Part shown: positions 8,812 through 41,864 of the stretch, in pieces
Layout of the letters: each line of letters starts with the position of its first letter
Numbering within the stretch: position 1 is the stretch's first letter
Assembly: GCA_017471185.1 (NCBI GenBank)
Contig: JAFUVZ010000002.1
Coordinates: forward strand, 1 to 51,813
Length of the DNA: 51,813 nucleotides
Direction of reading: 5' to 3'
Origin: Bacteroidaceae bacterium
GTDB lineage: Bacteria > Bacteroidota > Bacteroidia > Bacteroidales > Bacteroidaceae
The notes under the pieces: model-generated
The model's input: only the letters and a program-made list of their open reading frames with translations
Databases searched by the model: none
What the model was told of the DNA's origin: nothing
Position numbers and translations under genes: made by a program

Positions 8812-9234
8812 ATGGCTACTGCAAGAATTGACAAATGGCTTTGGGCTGTGCGTATATTCAAGACGCGCTCGATTGCCGCTGAGGCATGCAAGAAGGGACG
8901 TGTGACATTGAACGGTTCGCAGGCTAAACCGGCTCATACCGTGAAGGAAGGTGATGTGGTCGGTGTGAAGAAACCGCCTATCACATGGTCGTTTAAGGTG
9001 AAGCAAGCGATTGAGAAACGTATAGGCGCCAAGCTGGTGAACGAGATGATGGAGAATGTGACCACGCCCGACCAGCTGGAGCTGTTAGAGGTAAGCAAGA
9101 TTAATGGTTTTGTGAACCGTGCCAAAGGTACCGGCAGGCCTACAAAGAAGGAGCGTCGTGAACTTGATGAGTTTACAGATCCTGTATTCATGGCGGATTT
9201 TGACTTCGACTTTGATGACGAGGAGGATATTTAA
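8812..9234 (+). CDS. S4-domain RNA-binding protein (Hsp15/HslR family)
   Basis: This 140-residue protein has an S4 RNA-binding domain at about residues 4-65 (ARIDKWLWAVRIFKTRSIA, KKGRVTLNGSQAKPA). A helical region and an acidic tail (FDFDFDDEEDI) follow. Hsp15 binds 50S subunits that carry stalled peptidyl-tRNA so that they can be recycled. Its position two bases after pth, another enzyme dealing with peptidyl-tRNA, fits that role. The stop codon is built into the first unit of the 7-base repeat array at 9233. Confidence 0.88.
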   Translation: MATARIDKWLWAVRIFKTRSIAAEACKKGRVTLNGSQAKPAHTVKEGDVVGVKKPPITWSFKVKQAIEKRIGAKLVNEMMENVTTPDQLELLEVSKINGFVNRAKGTGRPTKKERRELDEFTDPVFMADFDFDFDDEEDI

Positions 9235-9295
9235 TGAATAATGAATAATGAATAATGCTCAACGGTCAAGGGTCAAGGGTCAATGTTCAATGCTA
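9233..9295. repeat. 7-base tandem array, nine units in phase
   Basis: Nine consecutive heptamers run without slip from the stop codon of the S4 gene: AATGAAT (three times), AATGCTC, AACGGTC, AAGGGTC (twice), AATGTTC, AATGCTA. Each unit fits AA-N-G-N-N-N. The array ends exactly where the palindromic element at 9296 begins. Confidence 0.85.
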
Positions 9296-9541
9296 AAGTT
9301 TCGTAAGTGAATGAATATACTATTAAACAGCGCCCCGAAGGGGCAGAATGCTAATAGTCCAGGGCATCGCCCTGGGTACAAGGATATGGTTAGGTTCGCC
9401 CTGAAAGGGCAAAAGCCTTATCATGTCTTTCATGCTTTTGCCCTTACAGGGCGTAAGCTGCGAACTACATTTACCCAGGGCGTTGCCCTGGGCTGAAAGG
9501 TTACTGGCCTTTCAGGCCGTATATACAAGCTTGTGAGACTT
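9296..9541 (-). repeat. Modular palindromic intergenic element, copy A
   Basis: Terminal repeats are AAGTTTCGTAAG (9296-9307) and CTTGTGAGACTT (9530-9541), inverted with two mismatches. Inside, in order, are a GCCCCGAAGGGGC palindrome, a CCAGGGC...GCCCTGG palindrome, a 20-base-arm hairpin (9397-9416 with 9434-9453, one mismatch), a second CCCAGGGC...GCCCTGGG palindrome, and GGCCTTTCAGGCC. The strand is assigned by comparison: the module order is the exact reverse of copy C at 34093. Confidence 0.8.
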
Positions 9542-9570
9542 GAATTCAATGTTCAATAAATAAAAGTAGT

Positions 9571-10548
9571 ATGGACAAGATTAAGTGGGGTTTTATCGGT
9601 TGTGGAGAAGTGACCAAGTATAAGAGTGGTCCGGCTTTTCAGAAGATTGAGAATTCTGAGGTGGTGGCGGTCATGAGCCGCGAGTTACAGAAAGCCAAGG
9701 ATTATGCCGAAGAGAGGGGCATACCCAAGTGGTATGACGATGCGTCAGCCCTGGTGAATGATCCTGAGGTGAACGCAGTATATATCGCTACTCCGCCATC
9801 CTCTCACGCCACTTATGCCATCATGGCCATGAAGGCTGGAAAGCCTGTCTATATTGAGAAACCGATGGCTGTGACCTATGAGGAATGTTGCCGCATCAAC
9901 CGCATCTCGGTGGAGACGGGCGTGCCTTGTTTCGTGGCTTACTATCGCCGCTATCTGCCTTATTTCCAGAAGGTGAAGCAATTGGTTGACGATGATGTGA
10001 TTGGCAATATCGCCAATATACAGATCCGCTTTGCCGTGCCTCCCCGTGACCTCGACTATACAGGAACACAGCCTTGGAGACTGCAGCCTGACATCGCCGG
10101 TGGTGGCTATTTCTATGACCTGGCTCCTCATCAGTTAGACATGATACAGTATATCTTCGGTGTGATACTCGAAGCGTCTGGCTTCAAAGCCAACCGTGGC
10201 GGTCTGTATGAGGTGGAGGACTCGCTGAGCGCCTGTTTCCAGTTTGAGAGCGGACTGGTAGGTAGCGGTTCCTGGTGCTTTGTGGCACAGGAATCTGCAC
10301 GTGAGGACCGCATCGTGGTAATTGGCGACAAGGGTACTATCAGCTTCTCTGTTTATACCTACGAGCCTATTAGGCTCTATACTGAAAACAATTGTGAGGA
10401 AATCACCGTGGAGAATCCGCTTTATGTGCAACAGCCTATCATACAAGCGGTGGTTGACCACTTGCTGGAGAAGAAAGTATGCACCTGCGACGGGGAAAGC
10501 GCGACGCTGACCAACTGGGTGATGGATAAGATTTTAGGCAAGATATAG
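9571..10548 (+). CDS. Gfo/Idh/MocA family oxidoreductase
   Basis: This 325-residue protein has an N-terminal Rossmann fold (WGFIGCGEVTKYKSGPAF) and the family motif YIEKPMA near residue 95, which carries the catalytic Lys. The C-terminal alpha/beta domain includes GGYFYDLAPHQLDMIQYIFG. Such enzymes oxidise or reduce sugars, inositols or related polyols with NAD(P). The substrate cannot be told from the sequence, and the neighbours (an S4 protein and an antiporter) do not help. There is no signal peptide, so it acts in the cytoplasm. It is convergent with the antiporter gene, with only 4 bases between the stops. Confidence 0.88.
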   Translation: MDKIKWGFIGCGEVTKYKSGPAFQKIENSEVVAVMSRELQKAKDYAEERGIPKWYDDASALVNDPEVNAVYIATPPSSHATYAIMAMKAGKPVYIEKPMAVTYEECCRINRISVETGVPCFVAYYRRYLPYFQKVKQLVDDDVIGNIANIQIRFAVPPRDLDYTGTQPWRLQPDIAGGGYFYDLAPHQLDMIQYIFGVILEASGFKANRGGLYEVEDSLSACFQFESGLVGSGSWCFVAQESAREDRIVVIGDKGTISFSVYTYEPIRLYTENNCEEITVENPLYVQQPIIQAVVDHLLEKKVCTCDGESATLTNWVMDKILGKI

Positions 10549-10552
10549 GCAC

Positions 10553-12817
10553 TTAGTCGTAAGAGACAGATAGAGAGCCTCCCACAACCTGCTGCACGGC
10601 TTCACGCTCACCCACAATCCACACGACATCACCATACTGGAACAGTTCATGAGGATTGACAGCATGCAGCTCGTCACTGCCGCGTTCCACACCTACAATC
10701 AGGCAGTGGTATTTATTTCTGATATCGCTTTCTATCAGATTCTTACCCAAGAAAGGAGATTCCTCATCAATAACAAACTGGCGCAGAATCATCTCACCTC
10801 GTTCGTAGATGTCTTCTCCCAAATCAACCTTAGGACGCATCACTTCACTGAACTTAGTCAGTTCGGCGTCTGTGCCTATCACCTGTATCTTATCATTGGG
10901 AAATACCCGGTCATTGGCCTTCGGGATATTGATCCGCTTGTTACCCCGCAGAATAGATACCACATGAACACCATATAGTTTACCAAAGTTCAGATCCTTG
11001 AGCATACTGCCCACCCACTCCACTTCAGCAGGAACCTCGAAATCAGCCAGGTGGATATCCTTCGACATCAGTCGGCCCGCATACTCAGGTTTCTTGGTCC
11101 CTAAGTATTCCGCACGCACCTCACGAGAGCGCAGATTGGTGAAGAAGATCTTCTCTATCTTGATGGACTGCTGCTTGAGGCCACGGGAGATAATCATACC
11201 CGTCACCAGGATCAGTGCCACACCGAAAATCAATCCGGTGGAAATCTTGAATAAAGACCCCATCACAAACATGAGGAAAACGATGGCTATCAGTACCCTG
11301 AATATCACGGTAGCCAGCAGGGGCGCATGGTTCTTGGAGTCATGCCACAAGGTGACGAACTCATCGCTGTGATTGCCTTTCACCATGATGGCACGGAGGA
11401 AAGGAGCCAGGAAACAGATGGTAATAACCGCCACTACCAGATTGCCCCAGATACCTGGCAGCAAGCCTGTGAAGAAAGGACGGACAAAGCTCATACAGAT
11501 TGTTACTATCGCCACACTGACAATAGAATATATTACCGTATTCCTGATAATCTTTATCAAAAAACGTTTCCAACAGCTGTCATGGTTTACATTGCGTGTA
11601 CCCGTGGCATAATGCGTCAATGTACGTTTCCATTTCTCTGGCAAACGGGATTCCACGAGATCAGATGCCGGTTCGGCCAGCCTGATCATGTAAGGTGTCA
11701 GGAAAGTAGTGATGACTGACACAGCCACCACAATAGGATACAGGAAATCACTCGTCACGCCTAATGAGACACCCAAAGAGGCGATGATGAAAGCAAACTC
11801 ACCAATCTGTGTCAAGCTGAATCCACACTGCATGGATGTCTTGAGCGTCTGGCCTGAAAGCAATACACCCATAGAGCCAAAGATACTCTGTCCCAGCAGG
11901 ATAGTCAGCGTGATGACAAGGATTGGAACGGCATATTCCACAATCATGGCCGGGTCAACCATCATACCTACTGATACAAAGAAAATGGCACCAAACAGGT
12001 CTTTCACCGGTTTCACCAGATGGTCAATATGCTCTGCCTCTACCGTCTCTGCCAGAATGGAGCCCATGATGAATGCTCCGAAAGCTGCAGAGAATCCCGT
12101 CTTTGCCGCTACCACCACCATGAAGAAGCACAGGGCCAATGAGACTATCAGCAAAGTCTCGTCGCTCATCAACTTACGTGTTTTCCTCAGCAGTAACGGG
12201 ATCAGCCAGATGCCCACCACAAACCACAGGATCAGGAAGAAGCCCAGTTTGCCGATGCTCATCAGCAGTTCGAGCCCTTCCACATTGTTACTGACCGCCA
12301 TGGTTGATAGCAACACCATCAAGACTATGGCGAGTATATCCTCCAGGATCAGGATGCTCATCACCAACTGTGTGAACTGCTTCTTGAACAGTCCTAAGTC
12401 GTCGAAAGCCTTGTAGATAATCGTGGTGGATGACATGGCCAGCATACCGCCAAGGAAGAGGCAGTCCATGCGGCTCCAACCGAACAAGGTACCCACACTG
12501 ATACCCAAGAATATCATACAGAAAATGATGGTGCAAGCAGCAATGACAGCTGAGCCACCCACCTTCACTATCTTCTTGAAACTGAACTCTAAGCCGAGGG
12601 CAAACAGCAGGAAGATGACACCTATGTCAGCCCATACGCGCACACTCTCGTTATCCACTACAGAAGGGGTCATGCTGAGATGCGGGCTTGCCAGGAAACC
12701 TGCCACGATATAGCCCAGTACCAGAGGCTGCCTGAGCTTTTTAAACAGCAAGGTCATCACACCTGCACAGACCAGAATCAACGCCAAGTCGGCTATCAAA
12801 GGAGCTAATTCAGACAT
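10553..12817 (-). CDS. Kef/CPA2-type cation:proton antiporter with C-terminal TrkA-C domains
   Basis: This 754-residue protein starts with a CPA2 antiporter domain of about 12 membrane helices (residues 5-385), including PLVLGYIVAGFLASP and LGLEFSFKKI. More membrane helices follow at about 415-540 (IYSIVSVAIVTICMSF, LIAIVFLMFVMG). The C-terminal part from about 590 has TrkA-C-like regulatory domains (VHVVSILRGNKRINIPKANDR, FQYGDVVWIVGE). It probably exchanges K+ or Na+ for protons across the inner membrane under ligand control. No separate KefF/KefG-type partner is present. The extra membrane segment between antiporter and TrkA-C domains is typical of Bacteroidota versions. Confidence 0.88.
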   Translation of the reverse strand: MSELAPLIADLALILVCAGVMTLLFKKLRQPLVLGYIVAGFLASPHLSMTPSVVDNESVRVWADIGVIFLLFALGLEFSFKKIVKVGGSAVIAACTIIFCMIFLGISVGTLFGWSRMDCLFLGGMLAMSSTTIIYKAFDDLGLFKKQFTQLVMSILILEDILAIVLMVLLSTMAVSNNVEGLELLMSIGKLGFFLILWFVVGIWLIPLLLRKTRKLMSDETLLIVSLALCFFMVVVAAKTGFSAAFGAFIMGSILAETVEAEHIDHLVKPVKDLFGAIFFVSVGMMVDPAMIVEYAVPILVITLTILLGQSIFGSMGVLLSGQTLKTSMQCGFSLTQIGEFAFIIASLGVSLGVTSDFLYPIVVAVSVITTFLTPYMIRLAEPASDLVESRLPEKWKRTLTHYATGTRNVNHDSCWKRFLIKIIRNTVIYSIVSVAIVTICMSFVRPFFTGLLPGIWGNLVVAVITICFLAPFLRAIMVKGNHSDEFVTLWHDSKNHAPLLATVIFRVLIAIVFLMFVMGSLFKISTGLIFGVALILVTGMIISRGLKQQSIKIEKIFFTNLRSREVRAEYLGTKKPEYAGRLMSKDIHLADFEVPAEVEWVGSMLKDLNFGKLYGVHVVSILRGNKRINIPKANDRVFPNDKIQVIGTDAELTKFSEVMRPKVDLGEDIYERGEMILRQFVIDEESPFLGKNLIESDIRNKYHCLIVGVERGSDELHAVNPHELFQYGDVVWIVGEREAVQQVVGGSLSVSYD

Positions 12818-12900
12818 TTCTATATTCCTTTACGGTTCTAATATCAAGGCAAAGATAATGCAAATTGTATATTTTAGACAAGAATTAGGCTCAAAAAAAT

Positions 12901-12931
12901 TTTCTACTTATATAAGAAATGTGTAACTTTG
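12901..12931 (+). promoter_or_regulatory. Promoter of the methylmalonyl-CoA decarboxylase operon
   Basis: TTTC (12901-12904), 19 bases, then TAACTTTG (12924-12931) gives a perfect -7 and near-perfect -33. The gene start is 43 bases downstream. Confidence 0.7.
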
Positions 12932-12974
12932 CACCAAAATAGGAAAATACTAATTTTTTAAAATCAATAAACAA

Positions 12975-13394: not shown

Positions 13395-13413
13395 TCATAA
13401 TCGTTACAATACA

Positions 13414-22558: not shown

Positions 22559-24127
22559 TTAGAATCTTACACCCAGTGTCAGGAGAGCCTGGCTTCGTGA
22601 GTTTGTAACCTTCGTGACAGACGAAGCAGAAGGGTAGATGACATTGCCCTGCTTCACTACGAACGGATACATATTTGAGTTATAAGTGTCAAACTTATAA
22701 GCCAGGTCAGCATAGAACATACTGCCACGATAGCCTACACCGAAGGTAACGGTATGACGGTCGCCTGTGTTGGCATAATCCGTGTCGGTCTGGATTGAGT
22801 AATACGGCAGATCCTTATAAGCATTGTCATTGAAGATGGCAGTGCGGTAGTTATAACCTGCCCGGATACCGAACTCGGGTATCGGCTTGAACTCTGCACC
22901 TACCTTGAATGTGCTGACAGCCTTCAGCATGCTACGGGTAGAATTCTCAAAATCCATATATTCGTCATAACCGTCAACATCCTTGAACTTCAGCTTGGAA
23001 TAGTCCTCATACTCATATTCAGCGTCAAAAGCAAACATACTGCCCACTGTAGAAGCGACACTGACATTGAAGAGCCAAGGAGTGTTCAACTTAAACGGGC
23101 GAACCATTTCACCACGACTTGAAATCTGCTCTGGGGTATAGACATCATAATCGTACAGATTTCCGTCAGAAGCATCGAGCACCGTAGAGGTCAAGCGAGC
23201 TGAGGTCTTATACTCCAGGTCATAGAATGTAGGGGAATGAACAGCCAAGCCGAAACGGAATGGAGAATCCTCGAACGGACGGAAGATAGCGCCAAGCTTA
23301 AAGTTAACGCCCGTTCCCACGATGCGGTTCCAGCTGGCCAGGTCATAACCTTCAAGCTGTGTGCCAGGATAGTCTTCCACATAATAAGTGTATTTCCTAT
23401 ACTTCATATCGTTAATGCCAAGCGTAAAGCCCAGATACACACGGTCGTTGAAGTTAAGGCCCAAGTTGAAGCTATACTCATCCAAGCCACCTCGCTCCTC
23501 TACATCAAGTTGTCCGAGACCCTGGTCATACATGCCGATATACTCTTCATTCTCTCCAACAGGATCAATCACGGCTCCATAGTAGCCGATAGCCGACAGC
23601 CAGCCAATCTCGTCATTCTCAAAAGCATTATCCCAAGCATCATATTTAATACCGTCAGCCTGCTGTGCCATCTGGAGCGTCTGGGTGAAATCTCCCAGTC
23701 CTCCGGAGAATCTCTGTTTGCGGTAGAAAGACTTAGCCCTACGGTAGTTGAAACCGAAGTTCACATACCTCAGCGCAGTGGTGTTGCCTATCTTTGAGGA
23801 ATAAACGAAGCCAATCTGGTCGAAATCGCCCCTCAAATCATCCTTCTTGTATGTTCCGTCGAGCGTCTTGCTCTTGGAATTGTAGGCTGACAAACCGAAA
23901 GTTGTCTGAAGATCGCTGCTTCGGTAGATACCGATACCGCCAGGATTGGTATTCATGGTGGAGATGTCTCCACCCAAGGCACTCATGGCACCACCCATAC
24001 TGACGAAACGGGCTGTACCGTTCAAATCCTTATCCACGAACTTAGCCGCATCATATACTGTCTGGGCAGCAACAGGGGCTGACAAGAAAATCAAGCCCCA
24101 TGCAACCATCAAAAACTTATTCTTCAT
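22559..24127 (-). CDS. OmpP1/FadL-like outer-membrane beta-barrel protein
   Basis: From ATG 24127 the protein has 522 residues and a signal peptide (KNKFLMVAWGLIFLSAPVAAQ). The front of the mature chain is GTARFVSMGGAMSALGGD and TNPGGIGIYRSSDL, the conserved plug-like start of OmpP1/FadL/TodX proteins. A barrel with alternating aromatic strands follows, ending in ALLTLGVRF with a C-terminal Phe. Such proteins carry hydrophobic or other small substrates across the outer membrane; this substrate is unknown. Upstream in-frame starts (24151, or TTG 24163) run into palindromic element B, so 24127 is preferred. Confidence 0.82.
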   Translation of the reverse strand: MKNKFLMVAWGLIFLSAPVAAQTVYDAAKFVDKDLNGTARFVSMGGAMSALGGDISTMNTNPGGIGIYRSSDLQTTFGLSAYNSKSKTLDGTYKKDDLRGDFDQIGFVYSSKIGNTTALRYVNFGFNYRRAKSFYRKQRFSGGLGDFTQTLQMAQQADGIKYDAWDNAFENDEIGWLSAIGYYGAVIDPVGENEEYIGMYDQGLGQLDVEERGGLDEYSFNLGLNFNDRVYLGFTLGINDMKYRKYTYYVEDYPGTQLEGYDLASWNRIVGTGVNFKLGAIFRPFEDSPFRFGLAVHSPTFYDLEYKTSARLTSTVLDASDGNLYDYDVYTPEQISSRGEMVRPFKLNTPWLFNVSVASTVGSMFAFDAEYEYEDYSKLKFKDVDGYDEYMDFENSTRSMLKAVSTFKVGAEFKPIPEFGIRAGYNYRTAIFNDNAYKDLPYYSIQTDTDYANTGDRHTVTFGVGYRGSMFYADLAYKFDTYNSNMYPFVVKQGNVIYPSASSVTKVTNSRSQALLTLGVRF

Positions 24128-24152: not shown

Positions 24153-24335
24153 ATGTTACGCAAGTAATGATACTTTTGTCAAAAACGCCCTGAAGGGGCA
24201 ACAGCATTACATCAGGGCTTTTGCCCTTACAGGGCGAACTCCTCAGATTGCCTTTATACCCAGGGCGATGCCCTGGGCTATGGGCTCTCTGCCCCTTCGG
24301 GGCGATATTCAGCCGCATATTCATTCCACACTTCA
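24153..24335 (+). repeat. Modular palindromic intergenic element, copy B (shortened)
   Basis: The left end ATGTTACGCAAG (24153-24164) matches the element terminus with two changes. The hairpin has arms 24186-24205 and 24217-24236 (CGCCCTGAAGGGGCAACAGC against GCTTTTGCCCTTACAGGGCG). A CCCAGGGC...GCCCTGGG palindrome and GCCCCTTCGGGGC follow. The GGCCTGAAAGGCC module and first CCCAGGGC module of copy C are missing. It fills the gap between two minus-strand genes. Confidence 0.75.
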
Positions 24336-25986: not shown

Positions 25987-27900
25987 ATGAAAGTTGGTAA
26001 TTTCGTTCAGAGTTATATATCCGAGCGAGTGCTGCCCATTTGGTGCATATTTTTGCTGGATGTATTTATTGTAGCCTTTTCTGTCTTACTGGCGTATCTT
26101 CTGCGCTACAGTGTAGATACTATTTTCCTACCCTCCAGTTCTCTTGGCAAGTCCATGCTGTGGATAACCCTTGTAAACATCATATTCTTCAGGGTCTTTC
26201 ACACCTATGCGAACATCTTGCGGTTCTCGTCGTTCGTTGACATCTTGCACATCTTCGTGTCGCTGACCGTGAGCTACCTGCTGCTATTCACCGGATGTCT
26301 TATTTCCGAAGTGGGTTTCGACTTTGAGTTCCTGCCCATCAGTACGCTCATCATCTCCTACGTCATCAGCTTTGCGGTGATGGCGGGTGTCAGAGTAGTC
26401 ATCAAGATTATTTACGAGCATCTGAACTTTGACGACCAGCACGGCACCAATGTGTTTATTTTCGGTACGCGCGAGTATGGCGTTGACATCGCCAAGTCTA
26501 TCCGCTCTAAAGCTCATTACAAATACCGTCTGAAAGGATTCATCTCTTCTGATCCTGATTTTATAGGCAAGATCATTATGGGCGTGAAGGTTTATCCATA
26601 CGACGGGAGCCTATTAGCCAAGCTGATAGAGAAGAACATCAAGTCTGTGATTGTGACTCCATATAATATGGATAAGCTGAAGAACAGCGACTTTACCGAC
26701 CAGCTGCTGGCTAACAACATCAAGATTCTGATTATCCCTAACCTGAGCGAATGGAACAACAGCAACTCTCACGGCATCAACCAGCTGAAGGAACTGCAGA
26801 TAGAGGACTTGCTGCAGCGTGACACCATACAGATTGACATGCAGAAGATAGCCTCTCACTTAGAGGGGAAGCGCGTGATGATTACCGGAGCCGCAGGCTC
26901 TATAGGCAGCGAGATCGTCCGTCAGGTAGCATCTTTCAATCCTTTTGACCTGATTCTGATTGACCAGGCAGAGACCCCGCTTCACGACATCCGCTTGGAA
27001 CTGCAGTCGAAATGGATGGAGATTAAGGCAGAGACGATCGTAGCTGATATTTCCAACGCCTCACGCATGGAGGAGATCTTTAAAGACTATCGCCCGCAAT
27101 ACGTATTCCACGCAGCTGCATACAAACATGTGCCTATGATGGAAGACAATGCTTCTGAGGCCATACAGAACAACGTGGCCGGCACACGCATCCTGGCTGA
27201 CCTGGCCGTTAAATATAAGACTGAGAAGTTTGTGATGATATCAACGGATAAGGCAGTTAATCCGTCAAACGTGATGGGTTGCTCCAAACGAATCTGTGAG
27301 ATATACGTGCAGTCACTCGCCAAGAAGCTTGAGAAGGAAGGAATCAAGACTACCCAGTTCATTACCACCCGCTTTGGCAATGTGCTCGGTTCAAACGGTT
27401 CCGTTATTCCTTTGTTCCGCAAGCAGATTGAGAAAGGTGGCCCTGTTACGGTAACTCATCCGGAAATAATCCGCTACTTTATGACGATTCCTGAGGCTTG
27501 CCGGCTGGTATTGGAAGCGGGCAGCATGGGCAACGGTGGTGAGATTTTCATCTTCGACATGGGTAAGCCTGTGAAGATTCTGGACCTGGCTAAGCAGATG
27601 ATCAGCCTTTCCGGAAGGACTGACGTACAAATCAAGTTCACCGGTCTGCGTCACGGAGAGAAACTGTATGAAGTACTGCTGAACGACAAGGAGCACACCA
27701 AGCCAACCTACAATGAGAAGATTATGATTGCTGATGTACGTGAATATGATTATGACGAAGTGAAGGTCAAGATTCACGAACTGGAGGAAATCGCTGCAAC
27801 ATATGACCAGATGAAGATTGTGGAGAAGATGAAAGAGCTGGTGCCTGAATACGTCAGCAAGAATTCCATCTTCGAACAACTCGACCACAAGGACAATTGA
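25987..27900 (+). CDS. Membrane nucleotide-sugar 4,6-dehydratase (CapD/PglF/WbpM family)
   Basis: This 637-residue protein has four N-terminal membrane helices (about residues 15-135) and a first Rossmann-like domain (TNVFIFGTREYGVDIAKS). The large extended SDR domain has its NAD(P) loop TGAAGSIGSE at about 300-309. The catalytic region around FVMISTDKAVNPSNVMG carries the modified active-site Met/Lys of UDP-GlcNAc 4,6-dehydratases. It makes 4-keto-6-deoxy sugars for capsule, O-antigen or glycoprotein glycans. No glycosyltransferase genes are adjacent. The stop codon is formed within the first unit of a 7-base repeat array. Confidence 0.9.
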   Translation: MKVGNFVQSYISERVLPIWCIFLLDVFIVAFSVLLAYLLRYSVDTIFLPSSSLGKSMLWITLVNIIFFRVFHTYANILRFSSFVDILHIFVSLTVSYLLLFTGCLISEVGFDFEFLPISTLIISYVISFAVMAGVRVVIKIIYEHLNFDDQHGTNVFIFGTREYGVDIAKSIRSKAHYKYRLKGFISSDPDFIGKIIMGVKVYPYDGSLLAKLIEKNIKSVIVTPYNMDKLKNSDFTDQLLANNIKILIIPNLSEWNNSNSHGINQLKELQIEDLLQRDTIQIDMQKIASHLEGKRVMITGAAGSIGSEIVRQVASFNPFDLILIDQAETPLHDIRLELQSKWMEIKAETIVADISNASRMEEIFKDYRPQYVFHAAAYKHVPMMEDNASEAIQNNVAGTRILADLAVKYKTEKFVMISTDKAVNPSNVMGCSKRICEIYVQSLAKKLEKEGIKTTQFITTRFGNVLGSNGSVIPLFRKQIEKGGPVTVTHPEIIRYFMTIPEACRLVLEAGSMGNGGEIFIFDMGKPVKILDLAKQMISLSGRTDVQIKFTGLRHGEKLYEVLLNDKEHTKPTYNEKIMIADVREYDYDEVKVKIHELEEIAATYDQMKIVEKMKELVPEYVSKNSIFEQLDHKDN

Positions 27901-27922
27901 CAATTAATAATGAATAATAACA
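27895..27922. repeat. 7-base tandem array of four units over the capD-like stop codon
   Basis: Four heptamers in phase, AATTGAC, AATTAAT, AATGAAT and AATAACA, begin inside the last two codons. The TGA stop is bases 4-6 of the first unit. Confidence 0.75.
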
Positions 27923-27954
27923 ACATCTCACTCTCAATAGGGTGAGATGTTGTT
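27919..27954. terminator. Bidirectional terminator overlapping the end of the GH2 gene
   Basis: AACAACATCTCAC (27919-27931) pairs perfectly with GTGAGATGTTGTT (27942-27954) around a 10-base loop. It serves the convergent capD-like and GH2 genes. Its right arm also encodes the last residues (NNIS) of the GH2 protein. Confidence 0.75.
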
Positions 27955-30474
27955 TAATGCGCCAATCTTTCCTTCTTTCACCTCAGTAGTAAACAAACTG
28001 TTGAGATCAGCAAAGGTGATGTGAGTTTCAGGGGCAAAATCAGTGGAAGCCATATAGTTGATCACGCTTTGGTAGAAAGCCCTGCCTTCAGGATATGCTG
28101 CGGCTTTATCCAGATCAGCCATCACCACCAGCAGCCTTCCCTTTCCTAGCGTAAACTCAAAGACAAGTCCCAACTTGTGATTACGCTCTATATTGTCAAT
28201 GACCTGCACTACAGGCCTGTATTCCTTACCTGTATTGTCGAGCATGAACGGATGACTGTTTTTGATGACAGGGAACCACTGCCAGTCGGTGTGCATTTCC
28301 GTAGGGAAACTATTGAACAGCGGATGCTGTGGATTACAAAGAATACCCAATGTTCCAGGCGACACATCTTTCTTGTTATTCTCGCAGATGGTCTTGAACA
28401 TACGGTAATTCCAATAATCCGTCTGGAACAAACCTCCTACCGTCAGCTTTGAAGCGCCAGGCATGAGCAGCACATTGCCCCCCTCTTCCAACAGCCTGCC
28501 GATCGAGGCATTCAACTCTCTGGCTATGACCACCTGACTCTTCAGTTGGTTCAAATCCGTCTTATCAGGATAAACCCAAAGCTTGTAGGAGTTGTGATAC
28601 TCAGTATCGTCAATAGCTATAGACAGCCTCACTTGCGAAGGTTCCGAATATCCATTTAAGTCAACAGCTATGGAGGCAGCCTCTATCAATCCTTCGCCAG
28701 CAGGCAACATCAGGCTGCCCTGCTGTTCACCCAAAGTCCATCTCAAAGTCTTGCCTTCTAAAGAAGTACCGCTGTAGTTGGCAACCTGAATCTTAGCGTG
28801 CAGTCCTTCATCGGTCGTAAAGCAGTATTTGTCAGCCACTAATAGCGGAACCACTTCTGAGCAGAAGCCCCTCCATTCTTCAGGAGTAACCAGCCCTTTG
28901 GAATCCAAGAAGGCATCAAGCATCCCCACATACGCACTGCCCTGACCCGGATAATCCTGCAGGTCGAGCAACTGGAATCCTGCCATATCAGGCGTACGCA
29001 AATCCATCTCGATATCCTGCTTGTAGAGTTGCAAGGACCATAAGCCACTTGCCAGATGGAAGTCCTTCGCCAGATCCAGCATGCCCGCTTTCTCCAAACG
29101 GTCTTTGAACACCTCCATATTATAAGGGTATAACACTCCCGTATATTTCTGAATCTCGTCATAGTCGGGATAAGTCTGGAACTGAGCCGTTTCGTGTGAT
29201 ATAACGGGTACGTCTGTCAAGCTGCATCCTTCTTCGAAATTCATCACAGAGTTAGGATGGAAATGGTTAATCATTCCTCCGTCGAAAGCGTCTGCAAACG
29301 AGAACGAACCACGCGTATGCGTGTTATAGTTGCCCCACTCCTCACCTCCTACTCTACAAGTGGTGAAATAATCCATTCCGGGCTTTACGCCCTGATACCC
29401 CAGATAATAATTTGATCCGAAGGTATAAACCTTATCAGGTGCGATTTTTCTGAAATCAGCGATAAACTCCGCCATCTTGTCGATGCTGCCCCACAGCTCA
29501 TTGCCCAAGGCAAACATACGGAACGAAGGATGATGTCCATACCATTTCAGTATGTTCTCACCCTCTTTGTGCAGGAAAGTCATCAGTTCCTCGTTGCCAG
29601 CATCAAAGTCACCCCAGAAAGGCAGCTCTGGCTGCAAGATGACGCCCGCTTCATCAGCTGCCACGAATGCAGCCTCCGGTGGACACCAGGAGTGAAAACG
29701 CACATGATTGAGTCCATAATCCTTACAGACGGCGAAGTACTTGCGCCAAGAGTCCACATCCATTGGCACATGACCAGTCAAAGGCCACACGCAGGCATCA
29801 TGTCTGCCTCGCAGGAAAATACGATGTCCGTTGGCATAGAAGTGACGACCCTCGATGTGAAAACCGTTGAAAATTGACAATTGAGAATTGGCAATTGACA
29901 ATTTATCATTATCCATTATACTCAGGAAAATTTCGCCAATAATGCCGTTCCAATTGGTCTGGGTGTCTTCGGTGTAAACGTGGCTGTTGGCATAGAGTTG
30001 TTCAGGCACACCACTCCCGTTGTCAATCATGATGGCCAATTCATGACTACCTGGAGTGAGTAACTCAGACAGGTCGAACACCTGAGGCGTAGAGATGTCG
30101 TTAGAGGCGCCAGCTAAACGGCCATCCACATAGATTTCAGACGGTTTGGTACGTTCCAAAGTAAGATAGACTGGTTCGCCTTCCCAGCTTTTTGGGATTT
30201 CAACCGTACGCTTATACCAAGCCCTGCCTTTATATGAATACGGTCTTGAGAGATGTGTAGTTTCAGTCTTATCTACGATAGGGTCACCTTTCAGATTAGT
30301 ATCAGTCGTACCGGGCAGCATGACAGTTTCCGTCATCGCATCACCAGGTTTCACGCTTCCCTCTCTGTCTAAGGTAAACTGCCAGGTTCCGCTCAAATCG
30401 ATATAATCTGCATGATTCCCATTGCAAGCCCATAGGCAAAGCATTGAACAAAGCAGTGTAATCAGTTTTCTCAT
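27934..30474 (-). CDS. GH2-family glycoside hydrolase, lipoprotein
   Basis: This 846-residue protein has a lipoprotein signal ending in CLWAC (Cys17). The GH2 sugar-binding jelly-roll covers about residues 25-185 (YIDLSGTWQFTLDREG, GRAWYKRTVEIP). A TIM barrel follows, with the acid/base Glu326 in ALGNELWG and a likely nucleophile Glu428 in VISHETAQF. It would act as a beta-galactosidase, glucuronidase or related exo-enzyme at the cell surface or in the periplasm; the substrate is not readable. About residues 185-201 (DNDKLSIANSQLSIFNG) are encoded by 7-base tandem repeats inserted in frame between the first two domains. It is probably co-transcribed with the downstream genes only if the terminator leaks. 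Confidence 0.88.
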   Translation of the reverse strand: MRKLITLLCSMLCLWACNGNHADYIDLSGTWQFTLDREGSVKPGDAMTETVMLPGTTDTNLKGDPIVDKTETTHLSRPYSYKGRAWYKRTVEIPKSWEGEPVYLTLERTKPSEIYVDGRLAGASNDISTPQVFDLSELLTPGSHELAIMIDNGSGVPEQLYANSHVYTEDTQTNWNGIIGEIFLSIMDNDKLSIANSQLSIFNGFHIEGRHFYANGHRIFLRGRHDACVWPLTGHVPMDVDSWRKYFAVCKDYGLNHVRFHSWCPPEAAFVAADEAGVILQPELPFWGDFDAGNEELMTFLHKEGENILKWYGHHPSFRMFALGNELWGSIDKMAEFIADFRKIAPDKVYTFGSNYYLGYQGVKPGMDYFTTCRVGGEEWGNYNTHTRGSFSFADAFDGGMINHFHPNSVMNFEEGCSLTDVPVISHETAQFQTYPDYDEIQKYTGVLYPYNMEVFKDRLEKAGMLDLAKDFHLASGLWSLQLYKQDIEMDLRTPDMAGFQLLDLQDYPGQGSAYVGMLDAFLDSKGLVTPEEWRGFCSEVVPLLVADKYCFTTDEGLHAKIQVANYSGTSLEGKTLRWTLGEQQGSLMLPAGEGLIEAASIAVDLNGYSEPSQVRLSIAIDDTEYHNSYKLWVYPDKTDLNQLKSQVVIARELNASIGRLLEEGGNVLLMPGASKLTVGGLFQTDYWNYRMFKTICENNKKDVSPGTLGILCNPQHPLFNSFPTEMHTDWQWFPVIKNSHPFMLDNTGKEYRPVVQVIDNIERNHKLGLVFEFTLGKGRLLVVMADLDKAAAYPEGRAFYQSVINYMASTDFAPETHITFADLNSLFTTEVKEGKIGALNNISPY
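29872..29920. repeat. 7-base tandem array inside the GH2 coding region
   Basis: Seven heptamers in phase on the plus strand: AATTGAC, AATTGAG, AATTGGC, AATTGAC, AATTTAT, CATTATC, CATTATA. They are the same unit types as intergenic arrays elsewhere here, but are translated as part of the GH2 protein. Confidence 0.85.
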
Positions 30475-32879: not shown

Positions 32880-33998
32880 ATGACTAAGAAACTGGGATTT
32901 GGATGCATGCGTCTGCCGTTACTGAACCCCGCAGACCAGACAAGCTTCGACAAGGAACAATTGAAACGGATGGTTGACACTTTCATCGAACGTGGATTCA
33001 CTTATTTCGACACAGCCTGGATGTACCACAACTTCCAAAGCGAGGAGGTGGTGAAGGAAGTACTGGTTGACCGTTATCCCCGTGACAGATACACCATTAC
33101 GACCAAACTGCCCATCATGATGCTCCGTTCTGAGGAGAACCAGCGGCAGACTTTCGAACGCCAGTTGCAGAAGTTAGGCGTGAGCTACCTGGATTATTAC
33201 CTGGTTCACTCGCTCAACGAGGCGACTTACAAGAATGCCACGAAGCTCCACAGTTTCGAATACCTGCAGCAGCTCAAGGCTGAAGGAAAAATCAAACACA
33301 TGGGTATTTCTTTCCACGACAGTGCGGAACTGTTAGACCGCATCCTGACCGAACACCCGGAGATTGAACTCGTGCAGATTCAACTGAACTATGTGGATTG
33401 GGAGAGCGACAGCATCCAGTCACGCAAATGCTACGAGGTAATCTGCAAGCATGGCAAGCCTGTCGTGGTGATGGAGCCTATCAAGGGCGGCACACTCGCC
33501 AATGTGCCTGAAGAGGTGGAAGCTATGTTCAAGAAGGCTGAACCTGAGCTGTCTATATCATCCTGGGCCATCCGCTTTGCAGCGTCACAGCCTCAGGTGA
33601 TGATGGTGCTCTCAGGCATGAGCAAGTATGAGCAGCTGGACGACAACACTTCGTTCATGCAGGACTTCAAGCCGCTCTCAGAGGAAGAGATTGCCCTCGC
33701 CCACAAGGCGGCTGAGATCATCAACGCCAGCACCGCCGTGCCCTGCACAGCCTGCCGCTATTGCGTAAAGGGATGCCCCAAACAGATCGCTATCCCCGAA
33801 TACTTCTCGCTCTTCAACCAGAAGAAGCGTTTCAGCGCAAAGGGCTTCACTACAGAGACGGCCTACTACTCCAATCTCATCAACGATCACGGCAAGGCTT
33901 CGGATTGCATTCAGTGCCGCAAGTGCGAGAAGATCTGTCCGCAGCACATCAAGATCAGTGAGGTCATGAAGGAAGTGGCGAAGGAGTTTGAAGGATAA
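32880..33998 (+). CDS. Aldo/keto reductase with C-terminal double [4Fe-4S] domain
   Basis: This 372-residue protein has an aldo/keto-reductase barrel at about residues 1-270, with FDTAWMYHNFQSEEVV (Asp, Tyr), a Lys in TTKLP and His in YLVHSLN. A bacterial ferredoxin-type segment follows, with CTACRYCVKGCP (first Cys289) and CIQCRKCEKICP (first Cys343). Each motif has the CxxCxxCxxxCP spacing of a [4Fe-4S] cluster. Such fused enzymes occur in anaerobes and probably couple ferredoxin or cluster electrons to carbonyl chemistry. The substrate is unknown. It is cytoplasmic and a single-gene unit. Confidence 0.9.
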   Translation: MTKKLGFGCMRLPLLNPADQTSFDKEQLKRMVDTFIERGFTYFDTAWMYHNFQSEEVVKEVLVDRYPRDRYTITTKLPIMMLRSEENQRQTFERQLQKLGVSYLDYYLVHSLNEATYKNATKLHSFEYLQQLKAEGKIKHMGISFHDSAELLDRILTEHPEIELVQIQLNYVDWESDSIQSRKCYEVICKHGKPVVVMEPIKGGTLANVPEEVEAMFKKAEPELSISSWAIRFAASQPQVMMVLSGMSKYEQLDDNTSFMQDFKPLSEEEIALAHKAAEIINASTAVPCTACRYCVKGCPKQIAIPEYFSLFNQKKRFSAKGFTTETAYYSNLINDHGKASDCIQCRKCEKICPQHIKISEVMKEVAKEFEG

Positions 33999-34012: not shown

Positions 34013-34034
34013 ATTACAGTATTACAGATTACAG
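34013..34034. repeat. Short ATTACAG repeat (period 7-8)
   Basis: Three ATTACAG units occur at 34013, 34021 and 34028; the first step is 8 bases and the second 7. It lies 14 bases after the stop of the aldo/keto reductase gene. Confidence 0.6.
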
Positions 34035-34092
34035 TTTTCTAGGGAGCTATGTATGCTTTGGACGACGAAATAGAAAGTTTACAATTTTACTC

Positions 34093-34341
34093 ATTTTTCG
34101 CAAGTTGAACAACAACGGCCTGAAAGGCCAATAAGCTCACAGCCCAGGGCAACACCCTGGGTAAATGTGGTGTGCAGTTCACGCCCTGTAAGGGCAAAAG
34201 CTTTTGGATGCATATAAGTGCTGTTGCCCCTTCAGGGCGAAAACTGGGTGATTGCTTTTTCCCAGGGCGTTGCCCTGGGCTGTTGGGTTGTTGCCCCTTC
34301 GGGGCGCTATTAAATAGCACATTCATACACTTGAGAAACTT
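34093..34341 (+). repeat. Modular palindromic intergenic element, copy C (full length)
   Basis: Ends are ATTTTTCGCAAG (34093-34104) and CTTGAGAAACTT (34330-34341). The module order is GGCCTGAAAGGCC, CCCAGGGC...CCCTGGG, hairpin with arms 34192-34211 and 34220-34239, CCCAGGGC...GCCCTGGG, GCCCCTTCGGGGC. This is the exact reverse of copy A, so the two are the same element in opposite orientations. Both right termini here and in copy A read ACTTGAATT. Confidence 0.8.
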
Positions 34342-35067: not shown

Positions 35068-35123
35068 CTTTCTTACATTTTACTTCTCCATCCCTTTCGC
35101 CCCCTATATAGGAGAGCAATATA

Positions 35124-35242
35124 AATGTGCAACGTTCAATGTTCAATGTTCAATGTTCAACGTTCAATGTTCAACGTTCAATGTTCAATGTTCAATGTTT
35201 AATGTTCAACGTTCAATGTTCAACGTTCAATGTTTAATGTTC
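35124..35242. repeat. Long 7-base tandem array, 17 units in phase
   Basis: Seventeen heptamers run without slip: one AATGTGC, then a mix of AATGTTC, AACGTTC and AATGTTT. The end at 35242 forms two bases of the TGA stop codon of the DMT transporter gene on the minus strand. No unit copy is disrupted. Confidence 0.92.
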
Positions 35243-36140
35243 ATTCGCTCCCCAAATATAGGAAGAACATTCCAATCAGCACCAAAATTAAGTCAATAAC
35301 TTTACTTTTTAAGTTCTTTTCACGAAAAACAAGGGCTCCGAAGAGGAATGATACCACCACACTGCCCCTTCTGACCATCGAGACAATCGAAATCATAGAC
35401 CCTTCCAAGCTGAGCGAATAGAAGTAGGCGAAATCAGCGGCACAGAGGAACAGCGAGATACACACGATGGTCCATTTCCAACGGAAAGGGGTGCTGTTCT
35501 TACGGTTGGGCCACCACAGCAAGGCGATGATGGGACACATGATACCCACCTGATAGACATTGTACCACGACTGCACCAGCATGGGGTTGAGGCGAGTCAT
35601 GAGATACTTGTCGTAGAGCCCGCTGACAGCACCCATCACAGCCGCCAGCACGATGCACGCGATCCACTTGTTATGCCGGAAATCAATGCCTTCTTTCTTA
35701 CCAGAAAGACTCAGCATGAAGAATGACAGGATGGCCAGAGAGACACCTATCCACTGGTAGAGATTAAGACGTTCGCCAAACAGGAGCAAGGCCCCTATCA
35801 GCACCATTACAGGGCGCGTGGCATTGATAGGTCCCACGATGGTCAGGGGCAGGTGTTTCATGCCGAAATAGCCCAAAATCCACGAAGAAAGTACGATAAA
35901 CGACTTCAAAAGTATGTACTTATGAGCCTCCCACCCCGCTTCCGGCACCATAAAGACAGTATCTTGCAATGTTTCCGGGCTTAAATGAGAGACAATAATG
36001 AAGGGAAGAAACACCAGAGATGAAAAAACGGTGTTCAGAAACAACACCGGTAACACGGCGTTGTCCTTGAGCGACTGCTTCTTAAAAGCGTCGTAAAAGC
36101 CCAACAACAGGGCGGAAACGAATGCTAAGACTAACCACAT
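35241..36140 (-). CDS. EamA/DMT-family transporter
   Basis: This 299-residue protein has ten membrane helices and the two EamA halves (about residues 1-140 and 150-299), beginning WLVLAFVSALLLGFYDAF and ending VIDLILVLIGMFFLYLG. DMT proteins export or import small metabolites such as amino acids or nucleobases. No substrate is indicated. The first helix starts at residue 2, so the start codon at 36140 is well fixed. The only -7 element (TATCTTTG, minus 36153-36146) is 5 bases before the ATG, which suggests a leaderless transcript. The stop codon is part of a 7-base repeat array. Confidence 0.87.
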   Translation of the reverse strand: MWLVLAFVSALLLGFYDAFKKQSLKDNAVLPVLFLNTVFSSLVFLPFIIVSHLSPETLQDTVFMVPEAGWEAHKYILLKSFIVLSSWILGYFGMKHLPLTIVGPINATRPVMVLIGALLLFGERLNLYQWIGVSLAILSFFMLSLSGKKEGIDFRHNKWIACIVLAAVMGAVSGLYDKYLMTRLNPMLVQSWYNVYQVGIMCPIIALLWWPNRKNSTPFRWKWTIVCISLFLCAADFAYFYSLSLEGSMISIVSMVRRGSVVVSFLFGALVFREKNLKSKVIDLILVLIGMFFLYLGSE

Positions 36141-36145
36141 GGCCG

Positions 36146-37079: not shown

Positions 37080-37080
37080 A

Positions 37081-37108
37081 TTACAAGCTACGAGTTACGA
37101 GAGACGAG
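37081..37108. repeat. 7-base tandem array of four units after pgeF
   Basis: TTACAAG, CTACGAG, TTACGAG and AGACGAG are in phase, starting one base after the pgeF stop codon. They fill most of the gap to the next gene. Confidence 0.75.
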
Positions 37109-37118
37109 TGAATGGAAT

Positions 37119-38392: not shown

Positions 38393-38398
38393 AATTGC

Positions 38399-38406
38399 TA
38401 AATTTG
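38399..38406 (+). promoter_or_regulatory. -7 element of phoH
   Basis: TAAATTTG is a perfect TAnnTTTG located just after the M23 stop and 24 bases before phoH. The -33 region is weak. Confidence 0.5.
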
Positions 38407-38430
38407 CATCCTAAATGTAAAACCGTTTGA

Positions 38431-39417: not shown

Positions 39418-40336
39418 CTTCAATTTCCCGAAGCAGAAAAGCGTGTATCACGGGAAAGTGCGCGATGTTTATAACATCAATGATGAGAAACTGGTGATGG
39501 TGGCTACCGACCGCATCTCTGCCTTCGATGTCATTTTACCGAAAGGCATCCCTTTCAAGGGACAGGTGTTGAACCAGATAGCTTCTAAATTCCTGGACGC
39601 TACCACCGACATCTGCCCGAACTGGAAACTGTCGTCTCCTGACCCGATGGTGACGGTAGGCGTTATGTGCGAAGGGTTCCCGGTAGAGATGATCGTGCGC
39701 GGTTACCTTTGCGGAAGTGCCTGGAGAGCTTACAAGAGCGGCGTGCGTGAAATATGTGGCGTAAAGCTACCTGACGGCATGAAGGAGAATGAGAAGTTCC
39801 CTACCCCAATCATCACCCCTACCACGAAAGCTGAGATCGGCGAGCATGACGCTGATATCTCCAAGGAAGAAATCCTGGCAAAAGGTCTCGCTACTCCAGA
39901 GGAATACGCTTTGTTAGAGAAATATACGCTGGCGTTGTTTGAGCGTGGTACAGAGATTGCCTCTAAACGCGGGCTCATCCTGGTGGATACCAAATATGAA
40001 TTTGGCAAGCACGATGGCGTGATCTACCTGATGGATGAGATTCACACTCCAGACTCCAGCCGCTACTTCTATGCTGAAGGATATGCAGAGAAGTTCGCCA
40101 AAGGCGAGCCACAGAAGCAGCTTTCTAAGGAATTTGTGCGTGAATGGCTGATGGATAACGGATTCCAGGGTAAGGCTGGCCAGCAGGTTCCTGAAATGAC
40201 TGACGCAATCGTTGAGTCTATCAGCGACCGATATATCGAGCTATATGAACATATCACCGGTGAGCGATTCCAAAAAGAGGAAGCGGAAGGTGACGTGCTG
40301 AAGCGCATCGAGGAGAATGTCATAAAGGTATTGTAA
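39395..40336 (+). CDS. purC: Phosphoribosylaminoimidazole-succinocarboxamide synthase
   Basis: This 313-residue SAICAR synthetase joins CAIR and aspartate with ATP in purine synthesis. Visible motifs are YHGKVRDVY (nucleotide loop), [36 protein letters not shown] and [13 protein letters not shown] with [11 protein letters not shown]. The length fits the longer, eukaryote-like form common in Bacteroidota. The start ([19 protein letters not shown]) overlaps phoH by 23 bases. It is followed 4 bases later by menG, so phoH, purC, menG and aroE appear to be one transcript. Confidence 0.96.
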
Positions 40337-40340
40337 ATCA

Positions 40341-41078
40341 TTGGAATACCGCCACGACCATATCATACCCTACGGGGCTGAGGGCGACAAGAGCCAGCAG
40401 GTGGAGAAGATGTTCAACAACATCGCTCCGGCTTACGACAGGTTGAACTACACCCTGTCGCTGGGCATCGACCACTACTGGAGACGCAAGGCTATCAACA
40501 GGCTGAAACCTGTAAAGCCGAAGCGGATTCTTGATGTGGCCACAGGTACGGGAGATTTCGCCATTCTTGCCTGCAAGAGGCTGAAACCTGATTATCTGTT
40601 AGGGATTGACATTTCTGACGGCATGATGGAAGTGGCTAAAAAGAAATCAGCGCGAGCTCGGCTGGAAAGGCAGGTCTTTTTCGCCCATGAAGACTGCACT
40701 TGCCTTTCCATGGCTTCCTGCTCGTTTGATGCCGTAACGGTGGCGTTTGGCATACGCAATTTCGAGGGATTGGACAAAGGTCTGCAAGAAATGTGCAGGG
40801 TATTGAAGCCAGGAGGACACCTGGTGATACTTGAACTTTCTACCCCGCATCATTTCCCTATGAAGCAGCTTTATTCGCTTTACTCCAAAACAGTGATTCC
40901 GCTGATAGGCAGACTGATATCAAAAGACAACAGTGCCTACACATACTTGCCTCAAAGCATAGCGGCTTGTCCGCAAGGAGCAGAGATGCAGCGGGTGATC
41001 AAGCAGGCTGGATTCAGCGAGGTGAGATACGAAACTCTCACTTTCGGAATCTGCACACTATATGAGGCTATTAAATAA
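40341..41078 (+). CDS. menG: Demethylmenaquinone methyltransferase
   Basis: This 245-residue UbiE/MenG methyltransferase performs the last step of menaquinone synthesis with S-adenosylmethionine. Motifs are [32 protein letters not shown] (SAM site), [17 protein letters not shown] and YTYLPQSI. The only start upstream of the conserved region is TTG 40341, four bases after the purC stop; the next ATG lies within the conserved [14 protein letters not shown] start is therefore likely. Menaquinone is the usual quinone of anaerobic Bacteroidota with fumarate respiration, which fits the propionate operon in this window. Confidence 0.94.
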
Positions 41079-41097
41079 CTTATAAAGAGATAAGATT

Positions 41098-41844
41098 ATG
41101 GACATTTACGGATTGATCGGTTACCCGCTGGGACACTCGTTCTCTGCAGGATATTTTAATGAAAAGTTTGAGGCTGAGGGTATAGATGCCCAATATGTGA
41201 ATTTTGAGATTCCAAGCATCAAAGAGTTTAAGGAGGTGGTGGAAAAGAGCGCCAATCTAAACGGACTGAACGTGACGATTCCTTATAAGGAACAAGTGAT
41301 TCCTTTGCTGGATGATTTGGATAAAGATACCGCAAAACGCATCGGAGCCGTGAATGTCATCAAGATTGTGCGAGACGGCAAGAAGACGAAGCTCGTAGGC
41401 TATAACTCAGACATCCTGGGATTCACAAAGTCTATCGAACCGTATGTAGAAGACCATCACCAGAAAGCACTGATACTGGGTACAGGCGGAGCATCGAAAG
41501 CGGTATTCTGTGGCTTGCAGGACTTAGGCATAGAGAGCATTTACGTTTCGCGAAGCAAGAAGTCGGCCAACACCATCACTTATGAAGACCTTACGCCGGA
41601 AGTGATAGACAGCCATCACGTAATCGTAAACTGCACTCCTGTCGGTATGTATCCCAAGATTAACGAATGCCCTGATATACCCTACGAACTGCTGACTCCA
41701 AAGCATTTGCTCTACGACTTGCTTTACAACCCTGATGAGACGCTGTTTATGAAGAAGGGCAAGCAACAGGGTGCCATTGTGAAAAACGGTCTGGAAATGT
41801 TGCTTCTGCAGGCTTTTGCAGCCTGGGAGATATGGCAGAGATAG
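41098..41844 (+). CDS. aroE: Shikimate dehydrogenase
   Basis: This 248-residue enzyme reduces 3-dehydroshikimate with NADPH in the aromatic pathway. Motifs are GLIGYPLGHSFSAGYFNEKF (substrate site), LNGLNVTIPYKEQVIPLLD with the catalytic Lys, GYNSDILGFTKSI, and the Rossmann loop LILGTGGASKAV. It is slightly short (usual about 270) but complete at both ends. It follows menG by 19 bases; shikimate also feeds menaquinone, so the neighbourhood makes sense. The stop codon touches a 7-base repeat. Confidence 0.95.
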   Translation: MDIYGLIGYPLGHSFSAGYFNEKFEAEGIDAQYVNFEIPSIKEFKEVVEKSANLNGLNVTIPYKEQVIPLLDDLDKDTAKRIGAVNVIKIVRDGKKTKLVGYNSDILGFTKSIEPYVEDHHQKALILGTGGASKAVFCGLQDLGIESIYVSRSKKSANTITYEDLTPEVIDSHHVIVNCTPVGMYPKINECPDIPYELLTPKHLLYDLLYNPDETLFMKKGKQQGAIVKNGLEMLLLQAFAAWEIWQR

Positions 41845-41864
41845 TTACGAGTTACCAGTAAAAA
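41844..41864. repeat. Short 7-base array after aroE
   Basis: GTTACGA, GTTACCA and GTAAAAA are in phase. The first base is the last base of the aroE TAG stop codon. Its unit GTTACGA is the same type as the array after pgeF. Confidence 0.6.

Follow-up and report, generated by a model that had tools for sequence, protein, structure and literature searches.

Dispersed seven-base tandem arrays at gene junctions of a Bacteroidaceae bacterium and their possible relation to palindromic elements with heptad arms

In a stretch of 51,813 nucleotides from a Bacteroidaceae bacterium of the rumen (assembly GCA_017471185.1, contig JAFUVZ010000002.1, positions 1 to 51,813; hereafter the window), short tandem arrays of seven-base units (heptads) lie at a number of places. 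These dispersed arrays are real, reach beyond the window and are related to each other, and their appearance is that of related copies left by a spreading element, not of stutters that arose independently. It is estimated at about one chance in two (roughly 0.5) that they belong to a family of elements resembling miniature inverted-repeat transposable elements (MITEs) or foldback elements, the arms of which consist of tandem heptads, and that the window's own genome carries copies of such elements, or their remnants, in the form of its arrays.

Arrays in the window were sought with Tandem Repeats Finder (TRF; minimum score 30) and with a lag-7 local scorer written for this analysis (cut-off score of at least 10). 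The sample of the window's own genome comprised 842,349 of its 2,763,526 bases (30%; 40 stretches plus the window); the contigs were chosen among those with an AATGTTC match, and this unit may therefore be somewhat over-represented. In this sample 98 arrays were found at lag 7, as opposed to 11 at lag 6 and 5 at lag 8, and a single order-3 Markov control gave one. Such a head-to-tail excess over the adjacent periods is that of heptanucleotide repeats of the long simple sequence repeat (LSSR) or short tandemly repeated repetitive (STRR) kind. In the whole genome AATGTTCAATGTTC occurs at 114 places on many contigs, the same letters reversed at 2. A preliminary description of this DNA would have been abandoned by its author had period 7 not exceeded periods 6 and 8, or had arrays been absent from other contigs; neither is the case. 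The 7-base autocorrelation that it proposed is not visible in the plain base-by-base signal of the window (0.249 at lag 7), since arrays make up little of the DNA. At lag 22 (12 runs of 10 or more in L009-L028 and the window), as at lags 14 and 21, an excess of matches was noted; L and G numbers are our handles for loci and genomes.

The relatedness of the arrays follows from their units. When the consensus unit of each array is classed irrespective of rotation and strand, the 98 arrays fall into 26 unit classes, whereas equal numbers of random intergenic heptamers yield 90 (never fewer than 82 in 300 draws), and the five commonest classes make up 70% of the arrays. One unit family covers 81 of the 98, against 5.8% of random intergenic heptamers. 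It still holds 42 of 57 arrays if the AATGTTC class is excluded, and 28 of 40 in the first 452 kb alone. The dispersed family, the unit types common to different arrays and the need for more than ordinary slippage, all put forward in the preliminary description, are thus borne out. For the selection on spacing that it also considered no evidence was found, nor was an active 7-base copying enzyme; a mobile step is what we infer. The polarity to genes and the opposed pairs of relatives, both set out below, were beyond its view.

Paired forms of the arrays were encountered in congeners. Among 158 of these, AATGTTC pairs number 114 in G000, 43 in G062, 22 in G070, 17 in G069, 13 in G101, 3 in G063 and 0 or 1 in the rest. 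A window protein, searched in seven genomes only to rank relatedness and matched in six, was 53-54% identical in G062, G070 and G101 and 87-88% in G065 and G069. In the distant congeners G062, G070 and G101 many arrays are opposed pairs around a core of small palindromes, in which the modules CGGCTTCGCCG, CCATCCGGATGG and CAAGCAAGCTTGG were recognized. In all of 26 such elements the majority unit class is the same in both arms (8 of C class, 18 of A/G class; p 6e-7). Their folding, expressed as a z-score against shuffles, averages -7.3 and lies below -4.4 in every one, and the arm has four units in 18 on the left and 20 on the right. In the congener stretches, which were partly selected for the core, 35 of 53 neighbouring pairs are inverted and 38 of 52 arms have four units. 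Terminal inverted repeats together with dispersed short copies, by which MITEs are recognized, were found in the congener elements only. Over the 158 genomes CCATCCGGATGG is concentrated in G062, G070, G101 and G029 (20, 8, 8 and 6 occurrences) and CAAGCAAGCTTGG in G065, G100 and G063 (22, 12 and 11). Around CAAGCAAGCTTGG a palindromic core of about 85-100 bases, designated P1, was seen dispersed in G065, G100, G063 and others (L132-L148, L151), sometimes in tandem pairs (L135, L138, L151).

The elements have dispersed to unrelated sites in the congeners, and empty orthologous sites exist. At least 60 nt, arms included, are common to 112 of the 325 pairs that the 26 elements can form, and in none of these 112 do the flanks match. 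The best pair, L117 (G070) and L114 (G062), comes from two species and is 92% alike over 135 nt at unrelated sites. Eight orthologous junctions were compared between G062 and G101: three carry an insertion in G101 only, a fourth is occupied by an element in both genomes, a fifth has an insertion in G101 that lacks heptads, and the remaining three contain no heptads. At the three G101-only insertions the called G062 gaps of 5, 54 and 5 bases correspond to 32, 117 and 126 bases in G101; the 54-base junction of G062 has a short CTAAACC-like run of its own. Where both genomes have an element, the two differ in the unit class of both arms and partly in their core modules. In L075 of G101 (about 6267-6393) a hairpin insertion with the 8-base units ATTAAAAG was observed, in which an inverted copy of the neighbouring gene end (TTCAGCATT..AATGCTGAA) gives a hint of foldback synthesis. 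The L117 element had no match among plasmids or deposited phages. A search for orthologues with an L114 protein was dropped, its best matches being only 29-33% identical.

The arrays are also placed and oriented with respect to genes, as called by a simple gene caller written for this analysis. Only 24 of the 98 lie inside called genes, although 82% of the sequence is coding, and they are sparser between divergent genes (0.21 per kb) than between co-directional (0.90) or convergent ones (0.98); in many of 51 gaps displayed the array spans from stop to start. ATTGAAC/AATTGAC-like units were designated F and their complement R; ATTATTC/ATTCTCC units were designated sF and their complement (AATGAAT, AATGGAG) sR. 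F and sR are left types, R and sF right types. Left and right types number 35 and 10 near stops but 10 and 16 near starts in the window's genome (p 0.0018), and 16 and 3 versus 2 and 10 in 16 congener stretches (p 0.0005). Among array neighbours no more than 200 bp apart (32 pairs), the order is left type then right type in 19 and never the opposite; three pairs are of the same type and ten have an unclassed member. These polarity counts were obtained from stretches not selected for the core. Because 7 is not a multiple of 3, an ATTGAAC-type array supplies TGA in all frames, whereas R types are open. We interpret the polarity as a survival filter; a functional reason is also conceivable. Arrays at gene starts in this genome encode peptides, e.g. 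MFNVQCS. In L158 of G360 (10265-10460) the left arm stands ahead of a start codon that is contained in the hairpin loop, and the right arm lies just past what by eye resembles a lipoprotein signal peptide.

Similar arrays are patchy across the order and occur in rumen virus contigs. Of 247 genomes of the order 35 contain AATTGACAATTGAC, with a maximum of 97 occurrences in G360, and long hairpins with it were found in G360, G261, G212 and G334, which represent three families. Order-level stretches picked for AATTGACAATTGAC contain 60 period-7 arrays as opposed to 5 of period 6 and 7 of period 8; twenty other genomes of the order show no period-7 excess (6 versus 9 and 6, three of each from all-N contigs). 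In L159 of G360 the same heptad-armed hairpin occurs twice, at 8459-8580 and, 800 bases on, at 9259-9387; the loops are similar and the neighbouring hairpins different. Scanning IMG/VR for three occurrences of AATGTTC yielded 35 stretches; with the AATGTTC arrays excluded these contain 75 period-7 arrays versus 16 and 7 of periods 6 and 8. The 60 order-level arrays comprise 26 unit classes, the 117 arrays of the viral contigs 47. Ten proteins from five IMG/VR loci were searched: L203 has a terminase, L207 has two proteins that match phage families without a known function, and Pfam matched two of the ten; the other loci may be host DNA. L217 and L228 belong to the same virus contig (111,678 bases), which is rich in long heptad arrays of other units (TGATGTC, TCTTACA, TATGATG); three of its proteins were searched and matched no PHROG or Pfam family.

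In the reading that we favour, the complete element, as seen in G062, G070 and G101, would be a palindrome of about four heptads (e.g. ATTGAAC), a palindromic core and about four complementary heptads (GTTCAAT). It would enter, or survive, at stop-start junctions within gene clusters, where a left-hand type, lying close to the stop codon, is able to provide stop codons and a right-hand type near the start stays open. After arrival the arms would grow, shrink and mutate independently through replication slippage, and erosion together with slippage would leave mostly single arms, the form that predominates in the window's genome (2 to 40 units). Spread of this kind is presumably transposition-like. 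One case compatible with the derivation of single arms from paired forms is the ATTACAG array at 34013, which together with bases downstream is alike in the relative locus L032 (7611-7635). L032 has a complementary, opposed array at 7763-7787, 130 bases beyond. The array is therefore shared, paired in L032 and single in the window.

A number of observations weigh against this. The core was selected for in part, as 17 of the 26 congener elements came from loci fetched for CCATCCGGATGG. This motif was rejected as a universal core, being enriched in only four of the 158 genomes, and two of three G029 sites that were read have no heptads (the third has arms of another heptad, GATTAGT/ACTAATC). By eye, the heptads on the two sides of some P1 copies in G000, G065 and G100 run in the same direction. 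Unit-by-unit mirroring of the arms is not above chance (25 versus 23.2 +/- 1.2 expected, p 0.125). Such mirroring, which would be a sign of hairpin-templated copying, was therefore discarded, and the order of variant units indicates that each arm, after its formation, changes independently of the other. Heptad arms are present in two of the three G101-only insertions, whereas the unit in the arms of the third is of 8 bases, so that seven is not absolute; the G101 insertion without any heptads (3 to 96 bases) has been mentioned. The junctions displayed for the window and its relatives and for G062 and G101 showed no target-site duplication on inspection by eye, and no transposase could be linked to the arrays, autonomous copies having been sought only via Y1_Tnp. 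In the window's genome only 5 of 25 neighbouring pairs within 250 bp are inverted and 8 are direct. The folding z-score averages -1.0 for 97 arrays of this genome and -0.93 for 176 array-free junction controls, and 14% of either fall below -3; hairpins were accordingly dismissed as the general form there. The same holds for P1 as the usual partner, since its profile finds only 7 copies next to 98 arrays in the 842 kb. At the order level 27 of 46 neighbouring pairs are direct and 12 inverted, and G334 has the reverse arm order in all three stretches read. The poor folding, the few inverted pairs, the few P1 copies and the order in G334 mean that the step from palindrome to single arm is one we infer.

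The alternative that survives best, though it is clearly less probable, is an origin in situ: slippage would favour seven-base units, foldback or template-switch synthesis would make the inverted partners, junctions would tolerate them, and seeds at stops and starts (TTGA, AATGA, TAATGA) would recur. An idea of polymerase contact behind seven-base slippage is attributed to Mrazek 2007 in MacGregor (2015; PMC4679880), who also states that in most genomes of that survey no long simple repeat is commoner than the heptads. The avoidance of genes by the arrays, the prevalence of single arms of very different length in the window's genome, the many unit types in the order and in viral contigs and the inverted copy of an adjacent gene end in the G101 insertion are in agreement with it. 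It does not account well for the number of unit classes, which is far below that of random seeds (26 versus 90), for a core sequence common to unrelated sites, or for insertions at orthologous junctions, and seeds in stop codons leave the presence of the same family near starts unexplained.

A more far-reaching proposal, which we consider unlikely, is that Bacteroidales and their phages possess an undescribed dispersal system which inserts copies of foldback-like elements at stop-start junctions and is itself the source of the seven-base period. Units would then drift between species, between elements and even at one orthologous site, both arms would retain one class, and near constancy would be confined to the period, the four-unit arm and the polarity to genes.

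Still somewhat less probable is that the arrays are selected regulatory RNA hairpins, or arrays for a repeat-binding protein, at operon junctions, as proposed by MacGregor (2015) for TAACTGA repeats. The location at junctions, the polarity to genes and the strong folding of the congener elements would fit, but the arrays of the window's genome fold no better than controls and their positions are mostly not conserved. Of eleven loci matched by a window protein, nine are 85-88% identical and come from Bacteroidaceae, Prevotellaceae or Bacteroidales assemblies, several of them from sheep, goat or yak forestomach. Four of the window's array junctions could be compared with relatives; the other array places have no comparable neighbours. 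In seven relatives the 39-base junction 37080-37118 measures -4, 3, 9, -4, -4, -4 and 60 bases. In nine the gap of 32 bases at 41845 ranges from -4 to 125, where the larger values hinge on the called start, and in four the 173-base gap at 35068 ranges from 152 to 196. In none of the relatives' gaps matching these three did the scorer find an array, which leaves the shared array at 34013 and L032 as the exception; L033 has P1 in the gap that matches 35068. In addition, the unit class at one orthologous site differs between L115 and L075.

An artefact of short-read metagenome assembly or binning is most improbable: the assembly is 80% complete in 85 contigs and some arrays lie at contig ends (L053, L170), but alike arrays occur in many separate assemblies, on a 538 kb contig (G360) and in virus contigs, and heptads have been published for other bacteria (PMC4679880, PMC4692102).

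Of eight array places in the preliminary description of the window, six pass the lag-7 scorer and that at 34013 was detected by TRF only; the two units at 41844 were detected by neither. The arrays itemized in this paragraph are all given on the plus strand. The TRF period-7 list comprises 4300-4324, 9232-9257 with 9254-9292, 23583-23601, 29867-29903, 34013-34035, 35124-35243 and 37081-37109; 27895 and 41844 are not listed, and 23583-23601 (2.7 units) is an array absent from that description. The scorer gives 4300-4324, 9232-9292, 27892-27918, 29867-29919, 35124-35241 and 37082-37111. The array at 4300..4324 consists of 3.6 copies of AATGGAG (sR type; 100% matches in TRF). That at 9232..9292 is composite, AATGAAT three times followed by AATGCTC/AACGGTC/AAGGGTC/AATGTTC in the order sR then R, and overlaps the stop codon of an S4-domain gene (8812-9234). 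A two-unit R-type remnant, TTCAATGTTCAAT, was noted by eye at 9545..9557, just ahead of the start codon of the 9571 gene; alone it is too short for significance. The short array GACAATT/AATAATG at 27892..27918 (scorer only) is situated at the stop codon of a polysaccharide-synthesis gene (25987-27900), ahead of a strong terminator-like hairpin, AACAACATCTCAC..GTGAGATGTTGTT, that follows immediately 3' (27915-27955). At 29867..29919, AATTGAC-type units are followed by ATTATCC-type units (F then sF) within the open reading frame of a GH2 gene on the minus strand (27934-30474), which reads through them in frame without a stop. The three ATTACAG units at 34013..34035, with one 8-base step (indel), start 15 bases past the stop of the gene 32880-33998. 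The 17 units of AATGTTC/AACGTTC at 35124..35241 occupy most of the 173-base gap between a DUF3256 gene and an EamA gene, both on the minus strand. The TACGAGT/TACAAGC array at 37082..37111 (72% matches in TRF) lies in the 39-base stop-start gap between a Cu-oxidase_4 (YfiH-like) gene and a B3/4 gene. Finally, GTTACGAGTTACCAG at 41844..41858, two marginal units seen by eye, takes as its first base the final one of the shikimate dehydrogenase stop codon (gene 41098-41844).

A second dispersed palindromic repeat, of the CCCAGGGCGTTGCCCTGGGC type, was found in the window at 9326-9545 and 34115-34308, where it shares the gap with heptad arrays, and in part at 24216-24304 and 50382-50442. The window places are 80-85% alike, and matches occur in 12 of 41 sequences of the same genome that were searched. 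In Rfam only tRNA scored above gathering in the window, and the nine matches obtained with 18 element loci (E up to 1) did not reach the gathering score.

Repetitive extragenic palindromic (REP) sequences and the bacterial interspersed mosaic elements (BIMEs) that they form, which are associated with REP-associated tyrosine transposases (RAYTs), resemble the present elements as mosaics of small palindromes dispersed between genes; to our knowledge tandem heptad arms are not a feature of REP sequences. A search for RAYTs gave six Y1_Tnp matches in four of nine genomes. Within about 3 kb, three of the six have some lag-7 array (score 9 or more) and none has a paired element or any of the three core motifs, for which reason a REP/RAYT origin was rejected. 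The foldback elements of Drosophila are similar in having long inverted ends of short tandem subrepeats and a variable middle; they are eukaryotic, much larger and of another period. The STRR heptamers of cyanobacteria share the period of seven and the intergenic location with the arrays described here and differ in their units, and we know of no paired palindromic form of them.

The preliminary description knew of no equivalent in this phylum. This does not hold, as heptamer direct repeats, TAACTGA among others, have been reported from marine Beggiatoaceae, Cyanobacteria and five Bacteroidetes (MacGregor, 2015; PMC4679880). Like those, the present heptads are intergenic, near start and stop codons and patchy over distant taxa; there, too, other heptads occur alongside in Bacteroidetes and some syntenic relatives lack them. 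The unit is another, and related heptamers are rare as direct repeats there; TAACTGA itself is absent from the 26 unit classes and forms no tandem pair in the 842 kb. A palindromic core, a comparison of arms and a test of dispersal are given here, but none of them in the portions of that paper compared. In Xanthomonas, GGGAATC heptads form opposed paired arrays with the potential for a stem-loop (Rehm et al., 2015; PMC4692102). These are likewise mostly intergenic; the four units of most of them and the opposed arrangement of many recur in the congener stretches, and in the window's genome 5 of 25 pairs are inverted. They belong to one G-rich, quadruplex-capable unit family, whereas the units described here are A+T-rich and varied, GGG or CCC being present in only one of the 26 classes. 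Their positions are mostly kept between two species, whereas here they are mostly not, with 34013/L032 and one G062/G101 site as exceptions. A link to mobile elements was generally not seen by those authors, whereas the congener sites share core modules. BrickBuilt, a MITE of Porphyromonas gingivalis (Klein et al., 2015; PMC4596501), is also an interspersed Bacteroidales element with internal tandem repeats and small inverted ends that is always intergenic, but its units are of 23 bases, it has 19 copies in one strain, and it lies 49 to 591 bases from the nearest coding sequence. Opposed heptads and heptads of Bacteroidetes are thus already published, and the phenomenon described here is a variant of these. 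A description of heptad-armed palindromes in Bacteroidales was not found in the open-licence literature, which leaves most subscription journals outside.

Bacterial heptamer repeats have so far mostly been discussed as products of slippage or as possible binding sites. The combination of one period with related units, polarity, agreeing arms, shared cores and empty sites makes the origin and spread of heptads testable by strain comparison. For the genes concerned, junctions enlarged by insertions, in congeners from 5 to up to 126 bases, could alter translational coupling; at 37080-37118, genes that overlap by four bases in several relatives stand 39 bases apart in the window.

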